Shown here in pieces: positions 1,043-12,926 of a stretch of 21,383 nt of DNA. The stretch is taken from positions 1 through 21,383 of IMG/VR virus record IMGVR_UViG_3300046507_000558, one strand, 5' to 3'. Made by a program: the position numbers and the translations under genes. Each line of letters starts with the position of its first letter. Within the stretch, counting starts at the first letter, position 1. The DNA is from a virus. The notes below the pieces were generated by a model. It did not search any database and was not told the origin of the DNA. It was given only the letters and a program-made list of their open reading frames with translations.

Positions 1043-3118
1043 ATGGCCCGCATCAGCAAGGCCCAGCGCCACGCCGACATCCACGCTGACGCGCTCGCGG
1101 AGATGGACGAGATCCAGCTCGCGGTGCGCGACGAGCGCATGCAGTGCCTGCAGGATCGGCGCTTCTATTCGATCGCCGGCGGCCAGTGGGAAGGCGCCGT
1201 CGGCGCGCAGTTCGAGAACAAGCCGCAGTTCGAGTTCAACAAGTGCCACCTGGCGCTGATCCGCCTGTTCAGCGAGTACCGCAACAACCGCATCACGGTC
1301 AACTTCCAGACCCCCGACGGCGAGAAGGACGACGGCCTGGCCGACGCCTGCGACGGCATGTTCCGGGCCGACGAGCGGGCCTGCGACGCCGACGAGGCGT
1401 ACGACAACCTCTTCGAGGAGGGCACCGGCGGCGGCATGGGCGCGGTCCGGCTGTGCGACGAGTACGAGAACCCTGGCGACGACGAGGACACGCGCCAGCG
1501 CACGCGCATCGAGCCGGTGTTCGACGCCGACACGACCGTCTTCTGGCCGCTGGACGCCAAGCGCTACGACAAGTCGGACGCGAAGCGCGTCTACCTGCTC
1601 ACGCCCTACACGCCGGCCGCTTACCGCGACGAGTTCGACGACGATCCGACGACCTGGCCGAAGGAGATTTTCCAGCACGAGTTCGACTGGGCGACGCCGC
1701 TCGTCGTGTGGGTCTGCGAACTGTACAAGGTCGAGGAGACCAAGCAGACGCTCCACTTCTTCCGCGGCCTGGACCCGTCCGCCGAGGACATGAAGGTCAC
1801 CGACCAGCAACTCGAGGACGACCCCGACATGCTGGGCGAGCTGAAGGCGACTGGCTTCCGCGAGGTGCGCCAGAAGCAGGTCACCCGCCGGCGCGTGCGC
1901 AAATACCTGCTCTCCGGCTCGCGGATCCTTGATGACTGCGGCTACATCGCCGGCGAGCACCTGCCCGTCGTGCCGTTCTACGGCAAGCGCTGGGTCGTCG
2001 ACGGCGTCGAGCGGATCATGGGACACGTACGGCTCGCCAAGGACGCGCAGCGCCTGCAGAACATGCTCATGTCGTGGCTGGCCGAGATGGCGAGCCGCTT
2101 CGACATCGAGAAGCCGATCCTCGACGCCCGCCAGGTCGCGCGCCACGCCACGATGTGGGCCGAGGACAACGTCAAGAAGTTCCCCTACCTGCTGCTCGAC
2201 GCGATCCCGGGCGACGACGGCAACCCGCTGCCGCCGGCCCCGCTCTCCTACACGAAGTCGCCGCAGATCCCGCCCGCGATGGCCGCACTCGCGCAGATTG
2301 CCGGCCAGGCGCTCGAGGACATGCTGGGCAACCAGCAGCAGGGCGAGGAGATGCAGCCCAACATCTCCGGCAAGGCCGTGGAGCTGATCCAGAACCGGCT
2401 CGACATGCAGGTCTTCATCTACATGTCCAACCTGGCCAAGACGATGAAGCAGATCGGCCGGGTCTGGCTCTCGAAGCAGAAAGAGCTGCTGGTCGAGGAA
2501 TCGCGCGCGAAGAAGACGATCGATCCGGCGGGCAAGGCCGGCAAGGTGGTCCTGAACCAGCCGTCCTACAACGCCGAGACCGGCCGCGAGGAGCTGAAGA
2601 ACGACCTCTCGAAGTCGAACTACGAGCCTGACGTCGACGTCGGCCCGAGCAGCAGCTCGAAGAAGGCGGCCACCGTGCGCGCGCTCACCGGCGTGCTGCC
2701 GCTGGTCGAGGATCCGCAGACGAAGCAGGCGATCACGCTGGCGCTGCTGACCAACGTCGACGGCGAGGGGCTCGGCGAGCTCAACGCGTGGGCCCGCAAG
2801 CAGGCGCTGCGACTCGGCGTCGTCAAGCCCACCGACGACGAGAAGGACGAGCTCGCGCAGGAGCAGCAAACCGCCGCAAATCAGCCGCCCGACCCGCAGA
2901 CGCAGCTGGTCCTGTCGGCCGCCGAACAGGCGAAGTCCGACGCCGACGCCGCCAAGGCCAAGACCGTCGACACGCTCGCCGACGCCGACCTGAAGCGCGC
3001 GCAGACCGCCAAGACGTACGCCGAGGCGATGTCCACGCACTCGGGCGCGCTCAACGACCACGCGATGACGCTGCACGAGATCAATCAACCACCGGAAAGG
3101 CCGGCCGGTGCGCAATGA
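1043..3118 (+). CDS. Portal protein, P22 gp1-like
   Basis: The portal forms the dodecameric ring at one capsid vertex through which DNA is packaged and ejected, and it docks the terminase and later the tail. At 691 residues it is close to P22 gp1 (725). The N-terminal part has the family's look: a DERMQCLQDRRFYSIAGGQW block near residues 30-50, followed by a FENKPQFEFNK stretch and an FSEYRNNRITVNF stretch. The middle carries the acidic wing and stem regions. The C-terminal ~100 residues are Ala/Gln/Lys/Asp-rich and helical, like the portal barrel or coiled-coil end. Scaffold and coat genes follow directly. The start is the first ATG after the previous stop, but only a weak AGG lies upstream, so a start at 1102 cannot be excluded. 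Confidence 0.93.
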   Translation: MARISKAQRHADIHADALAEMDEIQLAVRDERMQCLQDRRFYSIAGGQWEGAVGAQFENKPQFEFNKCHLALIRLFSEYRNNRITVNFQTPDGEKDDGLADACDGMFRADERACDADEAYDNLFEEGTGGGMGAVRLCDEYENPGDDEDTRQRTRIEPVFDADTTVFWPLDAKRYDKSDAKRVYLLTPYTPAAYRDEFDDDPTTWPKEIFQHEFDWATPLVVWVCELYKVEETKQTLHFFRGLDPSAEDMKVTDQQLEDDPDMLGELKATGFREVRQKQVTRRRVRKYLLSGSRILDDCGYIAGEHLPVVPFYGKRWVVDGVERIMGHVRLAKDAQRLQNMLMSWLAEMASRFDIEKPILDARQVARHATMWAEDNVKKFPYLLLDAIPGDDGNPLPPAPLSYTKSPQIPPAMAALAQIAGQALEDMLGNQQQGEEMQPNISGKAVELIQNRLDMQVFIYMSNLAKTMKQIGRVWLSKQKELLVEESRAKKTIDPAGKAGKVVLNQPSYNAETGREELKNDLSKSNYEPDVDVGPSSSSKKAATVRALTGVLPLVEDPQTKQAITLALLTNVDGEGLGELNAWARKQALRLGVVKPTDDEKDELAQEQQTAANQPPDPQTQLVLSAAEQAKSDADAAKAKTVDTLADADLKRAQTAKTYAEAMSTHSGALNDHAMTLHEINQPPERPAGAQ

Positions 3119-3126
3119 TCTTGCCG

Positions 3127-3142
3127 TGATTCACGTGAAACA
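3127..3142. promoter_or_regulatory. parS-like palindrome (ParB-type centromere site)
   Basis: The 16 bases TGATTCACGTGAAACA differ at one position (third base A instead of T) from the bacterial chromosomal parS consensus TGTTTCACGTGAAACA. The inner ten bases TTCACGTGAA (3130-3139) are a perfect palindrome. The site lies in the portal-scaffold gap and its last base touches the -35 hexamer of the candidate promoter at 3143. In bacteria, parS is bound by ParB, which loads and spreads on flanking DNA. The centre is CACGTG, as in ParB sites, not CCCGGG as in Noc sites. Binding here by host or phage ParB is inference. I saw no second copy by eye. Confidence 0.6.
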
Positions 3143-3171
3143 TTGAAGTTATTGCGCGAATGCGCTTTAAT
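3143..3171 (+). promoter_or_regulatory. Candidate sigma-70 promoter for scaffold/coat
   Basis: A TTGAAG hexamer (3143-3148, 4 of 6 to TTGACA) and a TTTAAT hexamer (3166-3171, 5 of 6 to TATAAT) are separated by exactly 17 bases. The surrounding 60 bases are visibly AT-richer than the neighbouring genes. Transcription would start near 3178 and give a ~30-base leader before the scaffold ATG, with a ribosome binding site AGGAA at 3198-3202. It would boost scaffold and coat, the most heavily needed virion proteins, above read-through from upstream. The parS-like palindrome abuts its upstream edge. Confidence 0.55.
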
Positions 3172-3208
3172 CGCCCCTGACGAGCTGCCCAAACCCTAGG
3201 AACCCGCA

Positions 3209-4156
3209 ATGCCCAACCCATCCGCCGACACCGACCTCGAAGACCAGATCGACGACGCCCTCGCGGGCGACGACGCAACGGGCGACGCGGACGGCGACGG
3301 CGATGGCTCCGAAGCCGGCGACGACTCGGACGAGGAGGGCGGTACGGGCACCGAGGGCACCTCCTCGGACGACGGAGAAGGCGAAGGCAGCGATACCGAC
3401 GACGGACAGCTCGTCATCTCCCTCGGCGACGATGCCGAAGAGGAGGACGCCCCCGGTGCCGACGGCCGACCCGCGCCGGCGTGGCTGAAGAACCTGCGCA
3501 AGGAGAACCGGGACAAGGATCGCCGCATCCGCGACCTCGAGCGCCAGGTGCAGACGCAAGCGCCGAGCGTGCCCACCGTGGGGCCGAAGCCGACGATGGA
3601 GTCCTGCGGGTTCGACGCCGACAAGTTCGAGGCCGACCTCACAGCGTGGACTGAACGCAAGGCGAAGGCCGACAGCGCCGTCGCGGCCGCCGAGAGCCAG
3701 CGCAAGCAGCAGGAGCAGACCTGGACGCGGCGCCTGGCCACCGTCGATGCCGAGGAGGGACGCCTGAAGCTGGCCGACCGCGAGGAGTCGCGCGAGGCAT
3801 TCGAGGCGCAGCTCTCGCCGCTGCAGCAGGCGCTCGTCCTCGACGGCCCGGACGATCCGAAGACGGCCGCCATGCTGCGCTACGCCATCGGCCGCAACCC
3901 TTCCGTCGCGGCGCGCCTGCGCGCCATCGAAAACCCGGTGAAGTTCACCTTCGCCATCGCTGAACTGGTGGGCAAGATGAAGGCAGTCAAGAAGGGCGTA
4001 CCGCCCAAACCCGAGAGCCGCCCGCGCGGCGGCGCGGCAGGCCACGCGGCCGTCGACGGTGCGCTCGCCAAGCTCGAAGCCGATGCCGCGCGCACCGGCG
4101 ACCGCACGAAGGTCGCGGCCTACCACCGCAACAAGATGAAGGCCGCCGCGGCCTGA
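3209..4156 (+). CDS. Scaffolding protein, P22 gp8-like
   Basis: Scaffolding protein directs coat protein and portal into a procapsid and then leaves before or during DNA packaging. The 315 residues are close to P22 gp8 (303). Residues 1-85 are extremely acidic (Asp/Glu with Gly and Ser), residues ~90-120 are a charged coiled-coil (WLKNLRKENRDKDRRIRDLE), the middle is helical and highly charged, and the last ~60 residues are basic, ending in a short helix (KVAAYHRNKMKAAAA). The basic C-terminus matches the coat-binding end of known P22-type scaffolds. The ATG is preceded by AGGAA at 3198-3202, and the gene sits in the expected place between portal and coat. The assignment rests on position, composition and size more than on conserved residues. 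Confidence 0.85.
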   Translation: MPNPSADTDLEDQIDDALAGDDATGDADGDGDGSEAGDDSDEEGGTGTEGTSSDDGEGEGSDTDDGQLVISLGDDAEEEDAPGADGRPAPAWLKNLRKENRDKDRRIRDLERQVQTQAPSVPTVGPKPTMESCGFDADKFEADLTAWTERKAKADSAVAAAESQRKQQEQTWTRRLATVDAEEGRLKLADREESREAFEAQLSPLQQALVLDGPDDPKTAAMLRYAIGRNPSVAARLRAIENPVKFTFAIAELVGKMKAVKKGVPPKPESRPRGGAAGHAAVDGALAKLEADAARTGDRTKVAAYHRNKMKAAAA

Positions 4157-4236
4157 TACCGCGGCAGGCCGGCGCCCCTTCAGCGCGCCAGGAATCGCCC
4201 ACCTCGAAGGGCAGTGAGGCCCCCGTCCGGCCCTGA

Positions 4237-4288
4237 GCGGATGAGTCAACGCAGCGCGAGCGAAAGCCGCGCGTCGATCACTCATCGC
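4237..4288 (+). ncRNA. Stem-loop in coat gene leader
   Basis: The outer arms GCGGATGAGT (4237-4246) and ACTCATCGC (4280-4288) are complementary apart from one bulged G. Inside, GCGCG (4254-4258), a bulged A and GC (4260-4261) pair with GC (4266-4267) and CGCGC (4268-4272), capped by a GAAA tetraloop (4262-4265). The structure ends 3 bases before the coat ribosome binding site AGGAGG (4292-4297). It has no U-tract, so it is not a classical terminator. Possible roles are mRNA protection, processing or translational control of coat; none is shown by the sequence. The rest of the 146-base gap holds no gene that I see. Confidence 0.5.
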
Positions 4289-4302
4289 ATCAGGAGGCCG
4301 CC

Positions 4303-5601
4303 GTGGCGACCGCATTCACCAAGCAAGAAACCGTCTTCTTCGACAAGCTGCTGGCCGGCTTCGACGACCAACTCATCTTCGGGCGCAACGTCAGCGTCTA
4401 CAACGCCGACCCGGTCGTGCTCGAGCGCTCGCAGGGCACCGCCTTCTGGCGTCCGGTGCCCTACGTGTCCGTCGTGATCGACGGCCCCGCCGGTACGGAC
4501 ATCTCCGCGTCGTTCGGCGACGTGACGCAACTGTCGGTTCCCATCGGCCTCGGCTACGACAAGACCGTGCCGTGGAAGATGACGTCGAACGACCTCAACG
4601 ACCCGCAGCAGCGCGAGCGCAAGCTGGCGAGCGCCACGCAGGCGCTGGCGTCCTCCATCAACATCTCGGTCGCCAACGTCGCCGCGCTGCAGTCCACGCT
4701 GACCGTCAAGCGCACCGTCGCGGCGAGCGGCTTCGACGACCTGGCCGCGGCCGACTCGCTGATGCTCGAGCAGGGCCTGGTGGGCGACGTCGGCCGGCGC
4801 GTGTCCGTGCTGCACGCCCGCGACTACAACAACATGGCCTCGGTGCTCGCCAAGCCGGCCACCTCCGCGAACTCGAAGGTCAATCCGGCCTACGAGCGCG
4901 GCTATGTCGGCACGGTGTCGGGCTTCGACACCTTCAAGGCGGAGTACACCTACCGCCTGACCGCGGCGGCCGGCGTCACGGTCACGATGAGCGCCGCGAA
5001 CCAGTACTACACGCCCAAGGCGACCAGCACGGCGACGACCGGCGAGCAGCAGAACGTCGACAACCGCTACCAGACGATCTCGATCGCGGTGACGAGCGGC
5101 ACGGTCAAGGTGGGCGACAAGTTCACGATCGCCGGCGTCAACGCGGTCAACCACATCACGAAGGCCGACACGGGCCAGCTGAAGACCTTCACGATCACCC
5201 AGATCGTGACGGGCGCCGGCGGCACGGGAACGGTGCAGATCTCGCCGCCGATCATCTCCGGCCAGGGCGCGACGAAGCCGGAACTCGAGTACCAGAACGT
5301 GACCGCCACGCCGGCCAACGGCGCCGCGATCGTGTTCCTGAACACCGCGGCCTGCAACGCCTCGCCGTTCTGGGACGAGCGCGCGATCGAACTGCTTCCG
5401 GGGCGCACTGGCGTCGACGAGGGGCTGGCCGCCGCGGGCGCTGCCTACATGCGCGGCTCCACGGAGCTGGGCGTCGAGCTGTTCATGTACAAGTTCTTCG
5501 ACATCAACACGAAGGTCTACAAGTACCGCGTGGATGCGCGCTGGGGCGTCGGGATGACGAACCCGGAGATGTGCGGCGTCGTGCTCTTCAGCCAGACCTG
5601 A
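4303..5601 (+). CDS. Major coat protein, P22 gp5-like (HK97 fold with I-domain)
   Basis: This is the capsid shell protein. At 432 residues it nearly equals P22 gp5 (430). The start is GTG at 4303 with a perfect AGGAGG at 4292-4297. The N-terminal arm (residues 1-60, including LLAGFDDQLIFGRNVSVYN and WRPVPYVSVV), the central region around 85-180 (YDKTVPWKMTSNDLND; HARDYNNMAS) and the C-terminal end (RWGVGMTNPEMCGVVLF) have the look of P22-type coats. Residues ~225-350 form a separate beta-rich block (DNRYQTISIAV, VGDKFTIAGVN, GTVQISPPI) at the place where P22 carries its inserted telokin-like I-domain, which stabilises the monomer. It is flanked by a structured leader and by two hairpins after the stop, consistent with separately tuned, high expression. 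Confidence 0.95.
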   Translation: MATAFTKQETVFFDKLLAGFDDQLIFGRNVSVYNADPVVLERSQGTAFWRPVPYVSVVIDGPAGTDISASFGDVTQLSVPIGLGYDKTVPWKMTSNDLNDPQQRERKLASATQALASSINISVANVAALQSTLTVKRTVAASGFDDLAAADSLMLEQGLVGDVGRRVSVLHARDYNNMASVLAKPATSANSKVNPAYERGYVGTVSGFDTFKAEYTYRLTAAAGVTVTMSAANQYYTPKATSTATTGEQQNVDNRYQTISIAVTSGTVKVGDKFTIAGVNAVNHITKADTGQLKTFTITQIVTGAGGTGTVQISPPIISGQGATKPELEYQNVTATPANGAAIVFLNTAACNASPFWDERAIELLPGRTGVDEGLAAAGAAYMRGSTELGVELFMYKFFDINTKVYKYRVDARWGVGMTNPEMCGVVLFSQT

Positions 5602-5606
5602 CGGGC

Positions 5607-5657
5607 GGGCCGGCCTCGGCTGGCCCCTCCGTCGCCCCGGGCCGCCTCGTGCGGCCC
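5607..5657 (+). terminator. Tandem GC-rich hairpins after coat gene
   Basis: Hairpin one spans 5607-5626: arms GGGCCGGC and GCTGGCCC, one G-U pair, loop CTCG. Hairpin two spans 5639-5657: perfect 7-bp arms GGGCCGC and GCGGCCC with loop CTCGT. Both start within 40 bases of the coat stop. Neither is followed by a T-run, so they may attenuate transcription only partially or protect the 3' end of a coat message. The next gene starts 29 bases downstream with its own GAGG ribosome binding site. Confidence 0.5.
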
Positions 5658-5685
5658 GATCCACTCTCAGCCCGCGAGGTTCACC

Positions 5686-6051
5686 ATGGATCGCTTCCCG
5701 AAGATGCTCTACCGCTTTCCGGCCACGAGCGGCGACCCCGTCCAGCTGCAGGACGGCGTCTACAACACACTCATCGTCGACGACGAGGCCGCGCACGACG
5801 AGGCGCTTGCGGCCGGCTGGCGCGAGACGTCGCCGGAGGCGCGCCAGGCGCATGTCGATGCGCAGGATGCGGACGCCGCGCTGGCCGCCGCCGGCGCCAA
5901 GGCCGCCGACACGTCCGACGACGGCCTGCCCGCGACGCGAGCGGAGCTCGAGCAGAAGGCGGCAGAGCTGGGCGTCGAGTTCTCGCCCAAGATCGGCGAC
6001 GCGAAGCTGGCCGAGCGCATCGCCGCCGCGCTGGCCGCCGCCGGCGTCTGA
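5686..6051 (+). CDS. Small head-region protein with LEM/HeH-like C-terminus, 121 aa
   Basis: A ribosome binding site GAGG (5676-5679) precedes the ATG by 6 bases. The N-terminal ~48 residues (MLYRFPATSGDPVQLQDG, then a VDDE segment and GWRETSP) look like a type of small protein often found beside phage coat or head-completion genes. The middle is Ala/Asp-rich. Residues ~82-118 (TRAELEQKAAELGVEF followed by KLAERIAAAL) have the two-helix pattern of HeH/LEM-type domains, short motifs of phage head and terminator proteins. It lies between coat and the gp4-like adaptor. The function is unknown. The domain call is by eye and moderate. Confidence 0.75.
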   Translation: MDRFPKMLYRFPATSGDPVQLQDGVYNTLIVDDEAAHDEALAAGWRETSPEARQAHVDAQDADAALAAAGAKAADTSDDGLPATRAELEQKAAELGVEFSPKIGDAKLAERIAAALAAAGV

Positions 6052-6060
6052 AAGCCCGCC

Positions 6061-6531
6061 ATGCGCACGAAGCAGCAGCTCATTGAGGACGCCTACGGCG
6101 AGATGGGCCTCGCCAGCTACACCTTCGACCTCGAGCCGGAGGAGATGCAGACGGCGCTGCGGCGCATGGACGCGATGTGGGCAACCTGGGAGGCGGCCGG
6201 CATCCGCCAGGGCTACAACTTCCCCGGCGGCCTGAGCGACGACAGCGGCCTGCCCGATGTCGCCAACGAGCCCACGTTCTGCGAGCTCGCGATCCGCCTG
6301 GCGCCCGGCAAGGGCAAGCAGATCAACCCGGACACGAAGCGCAACGCGCGCGACGGGCTGGCTGCGCTCTACGCCATCGCGGCGATGCCCATGGAGCAGC
6401 AGCGCCCGTCGACGATGCCGCGCGGCGCCGGCAACAAGACGTGGCGCGGGCCCTGCGGCACCTTCTATCCGACGCCGACCTTCGACCCGCTGGTGGCCGA
6501 CAGCTCGGACGATCTCATCATCACCCCGTAG
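6061..6531 (+). CDS. Head completion/tail accessory protein, P22 gp4-like
   Basis: P22 gp4 is added to the portal after DNA packaging, closes the channel and forms the platform for the rest of the tail. This protein has 156 residues against 166 in P22. Shared features are an N-terminal helix with QLIEDAYGEMGLASYTF, a LRRMDAMWATWEAAGI segment followed by a GYNF turn (P22 has a comparable EAMMAEWYQDGIITGY), an acidic loop, and a C-terminal SRMP-like segment, here PSTMPRGAGNKTW. The position after coat and before the gp10-like hub agrees with P22 gene order. The gene begins 10 bases after the preceding stop with no strong ribosome binding site, which suggests translational coupling. Confidence 0.9.
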   Translation: MRTKQQLIEDAYGEMGLASYTFDLEPEEMQTALRRMDAMWATWEAAGIRQGYNFPGGLSDDSGLPDVANEPTFCELAIRLAPGKGKQINPDTKRNARDGLAALYAIAAMPMEQQRPSTMPRGAGNKTWRGPCGTFYPTPTFDPLVADSSDDLIITP

Positions 6532-8873: not shown

Positions 8874-10289
8874 ATGCAGGTCCCGCTGCTGAACGGTATC
8901 TGGACGGACGCGGTCGCCGACTTCCGGGTCAGCTACCCGCGCAATCGCGTGCCGGTGCCGGTGGAGCAGGGAATCTCGAAGGGCTACACGCGGCCCGCGC
9001 CCGGCATCCGCGCGAACGGTACCGGCCTGGGCAACGGCCGCGGCGGTGCGCGGTGGAAGGACACGCACTACCGCGTCTCTGGATCGAAGCTGCTGCGCGT
9101 GTCTGAGGATGGCTCGACGACCGAACTCGGCGACGTCGGCGACGACACCCACCCGGCGACGTTCTCGTATGGCTTCGACCGGCTCGCCATCGCGTCGGCG
9201 AACAACCTCTACTACTGGAACGGCTCGGCGCTGACCCACGTCACCGACCCGGATCTCGGGCGCGTGCTCGACGTCGTCTGGATTGCCGGCTACTACCTCA
9301 CGACCGACGGCACGTCGCTCGTGGTGACCGACCTCAACGACCCGACATCCGTCAACCCGCTGCACTACGGCTCGGCCGAGGCGGACCCCGATTCGATCGT
9401 CGCGGTGCGCGAGCTTCGCGACGAGGCCTATGCCATCGGCCGCTTCTCGATCCAGGCGTTCGACAACATCGGGGGCACCGGCTTCCCCTTCGCGCCGATC
9501 AAGGGCGCCACGGTGCCGCGCGGCGCTGTCGGCACGCATGCGGTCGCTGCGTTCCTCGGCTCGTTCGCATTCGTCGGCGGCGGCCGCACCGAGGACGGCC
9601 CGGAGCCGCCCGCGGTCTGGATCATGACGCCCGGCGACGCAACGCGGATCTCCACGCGCGAGATCGACACCATCCTGCAGGGCTACACCGACGACCAGCT
9701 CGGCGACTGCTACGTCGAGTCGCGCATGGAGCGCGGGCACCAGCAGCTGCTCGTGCATCTGCCCGACCAGTGCCTCGTCTACGACGCCGCGGCCTCGCAG
9801 ATCGTTCAGGAACCGGTCTGGTACACCTTCGACAGCGGCTTCGACGCCCCGGCCACGTACCGCGCGCGCTCACTCGTCTGGTGCCACGGCCGCTGGAACG
9901 TCGACGACCCGACCAGCACCGCGCTCGGCTACCTCGTCGACGATGTCTCGACGCACTACGGCTCGAAGATCGGTTGGGACTTCGGGACGATGGTCCTCTA
10001 CAACGAGAGCCGCGGCGCCATCGTGCACGACATCGAGCTCGTCGCGCTGACAGGCCGCGTCGCGCTCGGCGCCGATCCTGTGGTCTGGACATCCTGGTCC
10101 ATCGACGGCATCACCTGGAGCCAGGAGCGCGCGAAGAGCGCCGGCAAGCGCGGCGACCGCGCCAAGCGCCTGCAGTGGCGCGACCAGGGCCGGTTCGAGA
10201 ACTGGCGCGTCCAGCGCTTTCGCGGCACGAGCGACGCGCACGTCACCTTCGCGCGCCTCGAGATGACCGTCGAGCCGCTGGCGGTCTGA
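8874..10289 (+). CDS. Tail hub / packaged DNA stabilisation protein, P22 gp10-like
   Basis: P22 gp10 binds below gp4, helps retain packaged DNA and carries the tailspikes. The length, 471 residues, is almost identical to P22 gp10 (472). The N-terminal start (VPLLNGIWTDA, then GYTRPAPGIRANG), the HYRVSGSKLLRVSEDG block, the repeated blade-like segments with YYLTTDGTSLVVTDLND, the PDSIVAVRELRDEAYAIG-F-IQAFDN region and the QQLLVHLPDQCLVYDAAASQ motif line up in order with the P22 protein as I recall it. The C-terminal third has the characteristic basic WSQERAKSAGKRG-RAKRLQW stretch. The gene starts 3 bases after the preceding stop. Confidence is high for the family. Confidence 0.93.
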   Translation: MQVPLLNGIWTDAVADFRVSYPRNRVPVPVEQGISKGYTRPAPGIRANGTGLGNGRGGARWKDTHYRVSGSKLLRVSEDGSTTELGDVGDDTHPATFSYGFDRLAIASANNLYYWNGSALTHVTDPDLGRVLDVVWIAGYYLTTDGTSLVVTDLNDPTSVNPLHYGSAEADPDSIVAVRELRDEAYAIGRFSIQAFDNIGGTGFPFAPIKGATVPRGAVGTHAVAAFLGSFAFVGGGRTEDGPEPPAVWIMTPGDATRISTREIDTILQGYTDDQLGDCYVESRMERGHQQLLVHLPDQCLVYDAAASQIVQEPVWYTFDSGFDAPATYRARSLVWCHGRWNVDDPTSTALGYLVDDVSTHYGSKIGWDFGTMVLYNESRGAIVHDIELVALTGRVALGADPVVWTSWSIDGITWSQERAKSAGKRGDRAKRLQWRDQGRFENWRVQRFRGTSDAHVTFARLEMTVEPLAV

Positions 10290-12217: not shown

Positions 12218-12247
12218 TTGCCTCGAGACGCCGCCGCGCGTGATAAT
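12218..12247 (+). promoter_or_regulatory. Candidate promoter upstream of oxygenase/GNAT pair
   Basis: TTGCCT (12218-12223, 4 of 6 to TTGACA) and GATAAT (12242-12247, 5 of 6 to TATAAT) are 18 bases apart, and a TG directly overlaps the -10 element. It begins right after the second spike's stop, in the largest gap of this half of the window. Transcription would begin near 12254, just before the hairpins at 12257. This is the pattern expected for an independently expressed cargo gene. Confidence 0.4.
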
Positions 12248-12335: not shown

Positions 12336-12926
12336 ATGCGGAATTTTCTGAGGATCGCCAGCGGCGTCAACGTGGCGCCGCTCATGCTGGCGATCGCGCG
12401 CCGGCCCGACCTCTGGACGGAAGACACCTTCCTCCGGCACTACCCGCAAGGTCCGTTCGGCGAGGTCGACTCGATCATGCTGCGCTTCCCGCGCAAGATC
12501 GAGTTCAAGGGCAAGAGCGCTGAGCGCAAGGTCGCCGCCTACAAGGCGAACCGCCTGCCCGGGTTCGACCAGCACGAGTCCGTCGACTACCCCGCCTACG
12601 CGCAGTTGCCCGAGGCGCGGCCGCTCGTCATGAGCATCTTCGCCGCGGTCGCCGGCGAGCGCCTGGGCCGCGTGATGATCAACCGCATCGCGCCTGGCGG
12701 CCGCATCTTCCCGCACGCCGACACGCCCGAGCACACCGACTACTACTCGCGCTTCCACCTGGTGCTGCAGTCCTCCGAGGGCGTCCGGTTCCGCGCGGGC
12801 GACGAGGTCGCGTACTGGGAGACGGGCGCCGTCTTCTGGTTCGACAACAAGCAGGAGCACGAGGTCGTCAACGAGTCGGCGGTCGACCGAATCCACATGA
12901 TCGTCGACGCGAGGTGCTCGCGATGA
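12336..12926 (+). CDS. Aspartyl/asparaginyl beta-hydroxylase-like 2OG-Fe(II) oxygenase
   Basis: Such enzymes use 2-oxoglutarate, O2 and Fe(II) to hydroxylate a substrate, usually Asp or Asn side chains. The iron ligands are visible as His127 and Asp129 (IFPHADTPEH) and His175 (KQEHEVVN), with Arg185 (VDRIHMIVD) as likely 2-oxoglutarate anchor. The strands between them (FHLVLQSSEGVRFRAG; YWETGAVFWFDNK) fit the double-stranded beta-helix core. The 196-residue length is that of a minimal catalytic domain. I prefer the ATG at 12336 over the GTG three bases earlier because it leaves 5 bases from GAGGA (12326-12330). The gene overlaps the GNAT gene by an ATGA junction, so the two are co-expressed. 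The substrate is unknown; a virion or host protein is possible. Confidence 0.85.
   Translation: MRNFLRIASGVNVAPLMLAIARRPDLWTEDTFLRHYPQGPFGEVDSIMLRFPRKIEFKGKSAERKVAAYKANRLPGFDQHESVDYPAYAQLPEARPLVMSIFAAVAGERLGRVMINRIAPGGRIFPHADTPEHTDYYSRFHLVLQSSEGVRFRAGDEVAYWETGAVFWFDNKQEHEVVNESAVDRIHMIVDARCSR

Follow-up and report, generated by a model that had tools for sequence, protein, structure and literature searches.

The window analyzed here, the entire 21,383-base virus record, which may itself be a fragment, is a late region of the P22 type that encodes portal, scaffold, coat, gp4-like, head closure, ejection and other proteins. On the plus strand, the P22-type portal protein gene (1043-3118; phrog_156, E 2.9e-116) is followed by genes for a P22-type head scaffolding protein (3209-4156; phrog_648, E 4.2e-43) and a P22-type coat protein (4303-5601; PF11651, E 1e-77), with the gp4-like gene at 6061-6531 and the head closure gene at 8874-10289. 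The portal and scaffold genes are separated by a 90-bp gap (3119-3208), which a codon-model gene caller also leaves as a gap, and this gap contains, at 3127-3142 (plus strand), the palindrome TGATTCACGTGAAACA. The 16-mer is identical in 15 of its 16 bases to TGTTTCACGTGAAACA, the consensus of the chromosomal parS sites of ParABS systems (PMC7383237 and PMC10197239); the sole difference is T to A in position 3, the inner TTCACGTGAA palindrome is intact, and the same sequence occurs as a chromosomal parS in some bacteria. The first-pass annotation had described precisely this, a 15/16 parS match with an intact palindrome in a non-coding gap between portal and scaffold genes, and its sequence, coordinates and identity are all correct, the gap is genuine, and the placement is borne out by the phrog_156 and phrog_648 matches on either side.

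A match of this quality is rare. The expected number of matches with one or no mismatch per window is 2.0e-5, 3.4e-5 and 5.8e-6 under Markov models of order 0, 1 and 2, respectively, so that the earlier estimate of about one chance occurrence in several thousand windows was right as to rarity but too generous as to the figure (6e-6 to 3e-5 per window); these expectations count one window and one motif out of however many were screened beforehand. For a 90-bp stretch with the composition of the gap itself, ∼1e-6 such matches are expected. Within the window, the 16-mer is the only match to the consensus at three or fewer mismatches (mean of 0.01 in 100 shuffles), that is, the record holds one copy and no second site at this threshold, and thus no cluster of parS copies on the same replicon. 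A single parS site is possible on chromosomes.

The gap has another feature that the first-pass annotation overlooked while correctly placing the site there, namely, a promoter-like sequence directly adjoining the palindrome. Under a weighted sigma-70 model, a predicted -35 hexamer, TTGAAG (3143-3148, plus strand), begins immediately after the 16-mer and is followed, after a 17-bp spacer, by a predicted -10 hexamer, TTTAAT (3166-3171, plus strand), with transcription inferred to start near 3178, and a Shine-Dalgarno-like AGGA (3198-3201, plus strand) lies 7 bases ahead of the scaffold ATG. This is the top-scoring sigma-70-type pair on either strand of the window (score 15.4, compared with 12.5 at 12218 on the plus strand and 12.0 on the minus strand for the runner-up independent pairs), and its score is significant against random stretches of the window (p 0.010) and against shuffles of the gap (p 0.025); a stricter consensus promoter scan of positions 2500-6500 did not call it. 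In the same gap of the window and 13 relatives, chosen by hand because their portals are close and their genomes GC-rich, the best pair beats random stretches of its own locus in 12 of the 14 cases (p<0.05), a count that is partly inflated because the gaps have lower GC, and beats gap shuffles, a comparison free of that effect, in 7 of the 14 (p<0.05); the gaps of L127 and L132 fall short of the threshold in both comparisons. In GC-poorer relatives, outside the scored set, the contents of the gap differ. Given these 12/14 and 7/14 counts above controls, a promoter for the scaffold and coat genes is probably a recurrent feature of the portal-scaffold gap. The relatives retain the promoter-like pair and not the site, so that the predicted promoter would have no need of the 16-mer.

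The center of the palindrome falls at approximately -44 relative to the inferred start, the region from which activators or repressors usually act. It could therefore be that the 16-mer is an operator for an unrelated host or phage transcription factor, a CACGTG-centered palindrome that regulates the scaffold/coat promoter from -44 and resembles parS by coincidence. The position directly upstream of the -35 element of the best promoter-like pair, and the recurrence of promoter-like sequences in the gaps of the relatives, are what such an operator would lead one to expect, but the match extends beyond CACGTG to the full 16 bp, identical to a real chromosomal parS, and the 13 gaps tested, in which inverted repeats are not enriched (p 0.23 for all combined, 0.61 for the window by itself), give no sign of a dyad operator common to this gap. 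On balance, we regard the operator explanation as unlikely. One of these gaps, in L011, does contain a long perfect inverted repeat (p 0.005), with 12-bp arms GCATAGTTGTGC and GCACAACTATGC (L011:4919-4953), that overlaps the predicted -35.

The 16-mer itself is apparently not conserved among the relatives that could be compared. Across 147 distinct portal-relative loci (1.64 Mb; 71 from one portal search, the best 80 of at least 581, and two MAG contigs, with overlaps merged), there is no site at two or fewer mismatches at this place or elsewhere. These loci are too distant for the gap to be aligned and some end before it; among those whose gap can be read, portal identity reaches no more than 62-63%, and the closer L126 and L124 end inside the portal gene. 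With some loci cut and the readable gaps no closer than this, the absence makes for a weak test, yet a negative one. A search for relatives through the scaffold protein gave 14 candidate stretches, none of which was confirmed. Among named genomes, the two closest, MW202867 and PfAn1, also lack the site: there is no parS-like site at four or fewer mismatches in the PfAn1 stretches fetched, and the one 4-mismatch site in MW202867 lies outside the portal-scaffold gap. The genome scan for a prophage or host found portal relatives on two MAG contigs only (Alphaproteobacteria and Lentisphaera) and gave no host assignment.

Weaker matches in the relatives do not amount to conservation either. In L127, CGTTTCACTTGAAACC matches with three mismatches within the portal-scaffold gap, and was rejected as a conserved site because it is in the wrong position, just before the ATG and away from the promoter-like pair, and because 3-mismatch matches are near chance expectation over 1.64 Mb. 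The other seven 3-mismatch matches are all TGGTTCACGTGGAACC; the three that could be placed (L053, L054 and L174) precede the portal start by 0.8-0.9 kb, and all seven are probably coding because a near match in MW202867 falls within the annotated terminase gene.

The absence from all 147 loci at two or fewer mismatches, the presence of a single site in the record and the choice of the finding from an unstated number of windows and motifs together suggest another possibility, that a spacer drifted into a parS-like string that nothing reads. The expectation of 6e-6 to 3e-5 per window, and the intergenic location next to the best promoter-like pair, weigh in the other direction, and we rate chance as a minority explanation, slightly more credible than the unrelated operator.

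As a sequence, the 16-mer is a genuine parS of certain bacteria. Among 398 bacterial genomes (from the same phylum as an alphaproteobacterial MAG, presumably Pseudomonadota), 19 contain 26 exact copies, compared with ∼0.7 under a uniform-base estimate and none for the reversed control pattern. In 18 of the 19, the exact 16-mer and the best-scoring ParB_N match share a contig and are no more than 12 kb apart, and in the nineteenth (G156), the two are on separate contigs. In 9 of the 10 bacterial stretches fetched, there are further parS-like sites or more copies within ∼7 kb, and 50 of the 60 genomes searched have parS matches at one mismatch or less. Judging from these sequences, some bacteria naturally have the exact 16-mer as a chromosomal parS, though the host of this phage need not be among them; and because it sits beside chromosomal ParB genes, the mismatch in position 3 leaves it within the natural range of parS. 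In bacterial chromosome segregation, parS serves as an address label.

The record does not encode the protein that would read such a label. ParB_N has no match in the window or in 21 portal relatives, a set of 22 records that includes seven of 34-43 kb, nor does HTH_ParB have one in any of 44 records, again with the window among them; many of the records in both searches are fragments. The suggestion, made with the original observation, of a phage-encoded ParB-like protein that regulates late genes is thus not upheld in these records, and because neither the window nor the 21 relatives have a ParB domain, the ParB involved would be that of the host. A phage-encoded partition system requires parB on the same replicon, and none was found in these searches; still, a record of just 21 kb leaves the early genes out of view, and an extrachromosomal prophage could use the 16-mer as the parS of its own ParA/ParB. 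Plasmid-type ParBs mostly recognize other site sequences, and this, together with the ParB_N (0/22) and HTH_ParB (0/44) results, makes plasmid-type partition highly improbable.

Comparison with known systems outlines the peculiarity of the locus. The window resembles chromosomal ParABS in the 15/16 identity and in that the exact 16-mer adjoins parB in some bacteria, but differs in having a single copy, in a phage late operon, next to a promoter-like pair, with no ParB domain on the record. The P1 and N15 phages likewise have a centromere-like site on the phage genome but encode their own ParA/ParB and have their own site sequences, whereas the site in the window is of the chromosomal type and no ParB was found on the record. 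VirB and KorB are ParB-fold regulators that act on transcription (PMC10653881 and PMC11790492); in the case of the window, by contrast, the acting protein would be the host chromosomal ParB. Both VirB and KorB are encoded by the replicon that each regulates. In P22 itself, parS has been inserted for imaging and is not natural (PMC8585504).

The window is not the only viral sequence with a parS site. Exact scans of IMG/VR yield 77 stretches with the variant found in the window and at least 120 with the perfect parS, of which 80 are listed. When genes are called with the codon model and GC-matched 16-mers serve as the control, the perfect parS among the matches listed is intergenic in 87 of the 116 cases in contigs with GC<0.55 (12.9% expected, p 1.7e-52) and in 8 of 20 in contigs with GC≥0.55 (22.4% expected, p 0.059). 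The exact variant is intergenic in 9 of 14 cases in contigs with GC≥0.55 (28.8% expected, p 0.006) and in 7 of 35 in contigs with GC<0.55 (7.7% expected, p 0.016); these counts exclude the window and, from a total of 78 copies, 6 near locus ends and 23 duplicates. The GC-rich value shifts somewhat with the treatment of individual cases: it becomes 8/14 (p 0.025) if genic status is given to the doubtful L205 site, which may overlap a gene start and whose homolog in L272 the caller places within a gene, and 10/15 (p 0.0026) if L235, a GC-rich contig omitted as a duplicate of the GC-poor L218, is included. Under a slightly different rule, with the window included, 17 of 50 variant sites are intergenic. 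A cruder ORF test puts 81 of 129 perfect sites among the matches listed outside ORFs (15% background) and the variant at background level, 6 of 49 (14% background); it was replaced by the codon-model caller because ORFs are over-called in GC-rich DNA. Since the intergenic counts exceed those of the composition-matched controls, the perfect parS in viral contigs is, by this measure, mostly non-random; for the variant, this seems to be true in part, chiefly in GC-rich contigs. The bearing on chance drift is mixed: 28 of the 35 exact copies in GC-poor viral contigs are genic, as drift would have it, but the same 16-mer is intergenic in 9 of the 14 cases in GC-rich contigs.

Among 28 parS-bearing viral records of 17-201 kb, ParB_N matches occur in one and are lacking in 27, and the degenerate parS pattern, when reversed as a control, does not occur in any of the 28. 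A second site within one mismatch is present in three of six chosen variant-bearing records. Two exact copies of the variant (L207:1326-1341 and L229:3633-3648) lie 15 kb apart on the same 97,657-base contig, the L207 copy being 48 bases before a transposase-like gene.

Several of the viral sites are located near packaging and head genes, so that the window is not unique in having a chromosomal-type parS close to phage packaging genes. In L074, two tandem parS-like palindromes, TGTTCCACGTGGAACA and TGTTTCACGTGAAACA (L074:310-349), precede terL, the nearer one 37 bases from its start, and this double site is shared by the marine-type contigs L076-L078, L080, L082, L084, L087, L093, L102-L104 and L111 (terL was checked in L074, L076 and L082, and the rest of the group was judged by the shared flank). 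L098, a P22-like locus with a portal 45% identical, which was found via parS rather than via the portal and is outside the 147 loci, has a perfect parS between terS and terL, 1.8 kb before terL. The exact variant is found 8 bases ahead of the portal gene in L210, between portal and head protease genes, behind a small called ORF, in L243, and ∼190 bases past the 3' end of terL in L221. There is no ParB_N match in the L074, L082 and L098 records and no HTH_ParB in those of L210 and L243. The L074 group, L098, L210 and L243 are thus similar to the window in having parS or the same variant near packaging or head genes, but belong to other phage lineages and involve other gaps; moreover, the L074 and L098 sites are perfect, and there are two in the L074 group, whereas the window has a single variant site. 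The isolates closest to the L074 terL, HTVC027P and 023Pt_psg01, have no parS-like site at four or fewer mismatches in the stretches fetched, and L327, a record from IMG/VR that contains a perfect parS, has no match in the phage collection. The proteins encoded next to the sites show a similar tendency: of ten scanned beside variant sites, three belong to head or packaging families and one is a transposase, the rest being unknown or without a match (with one marginal integrase match). For 57 proteins beside perfect sites, at least two members match each of 10 PHROG families, and 8 of these are terminase families, which represent few proteins because PHROG families overlap. This impression of gene function may be biased, head genes being easily annotated.

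We put at roughly an even chance the reading that the 16-mer is a host-type parS that recruits host ParB beside the scaffold/coat promoter, and consider it a toss-up whether ParB truly reads the site at all. The phage would carry a host-type parS but, as far as its genome is known, no parB gene, and the host chromosomal ParB, supplied in trans, would nucleate at the 16-mer just upstream of the scaffold/coat promoter. ParB forms CTP clamps at parS (PMC12704722); in the phage, such clamps might stay on the site or slide into the adjacent promoter, and whether bound or sliding, would change the timing or strength of scaffold and coat transcription. As a second choice, the host ParABS would tether or partition the phage DNA, and the sequence alone fits both regulation and tethering or partition. 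We infer the binding of ParB, the regulation of the scaffold and coat genes and the host range from these comparisons. Recruitment of host ParB, as originally proposed, is plausible because the 16-mer is a real chromosomal parS and because host-type sites recur in viruses that mostly lack ParB (27 of the 28 records without ParB_N), but the absence of the site from distant relatives speaks against it, and to this count we add the single copy, the possibly fragmentary record and the genic location of most GC-poor copies of the variant.

If phages without ParB do carry host-type parS sites at their late promoters, then phage DNA may be regulated or carried by a segregation protein that is conserved among hosts. 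The mostly intergenic placement of the perfect parS in GC-poor contigs (among the matches listed) and the single ParB_N-positive record among the 28 suggest that the phenomenon is wider than one phage. A more tentative generalization, to which we would give distinctly less than even weight, is that many parB-less phages carry genuine host parS sites, often before late packaging or head genes, and draw host ParB, possibly with ParA or SMC, to time late transcription, to position or partition their genomes, or to titrate the segregation machinery, the window being a P22-like example. The parS site itself is known; as far as we have seen, the setting is new, a chromosomal-type parS without parB at what is predicted to be a phage scaffold/coat promoter. 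Our searches of open-license PMC papers turned up no report of host-type parS at late promoters of ParB-less phages, and one may be in print elsewhere.

The portal-scaffold gaps of the relatives contain other elements. In many of them, an H-type pseudoknot (ACGGC..CACCCA GCCGT..TGGGTG) is conserved just before the scaffold start, its last strand reaching into the scaffold gene's ribosome-binding region (for example, L156:12087-12121, L141:12072-12106, L012:7354-7388, L134:12129-12154 and, in PfAn1, L415:4112-4141); it was not seen in the window. In 17 of 24 gaps, picked for showing the pseudoknot, 93.8% of the cells pair, compared with 26-41% in slid controls, and compensatory changes alter both sides of 5 of the 11 pairs in these same 17 gaps. 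Searches of five sources gave no Rfam match. P22-type scaffold genes are autoregulated, and the pseudoknot could be the element behind this autoregulation, on which a literature search returned nothing. In L034, the gap contains a CRISPR-like array (L034:1985-2274) of approximately four copies of the repeat ATGTTCCCCGCGTGCGCGGGGTTGAACCG and its variants with spacers, which may be genuine or may result from chimeric assembly. Finally, in the window itself, the second-best promoter-like site, TTGCCT-18-GATAAT (12218-12247), is in another gap and precedes a gene with an Asp/Arg beta-hydroxylase domain (12336-12926; PF05118, E 1.9e-18), which is unexpected in a head/tail operon.
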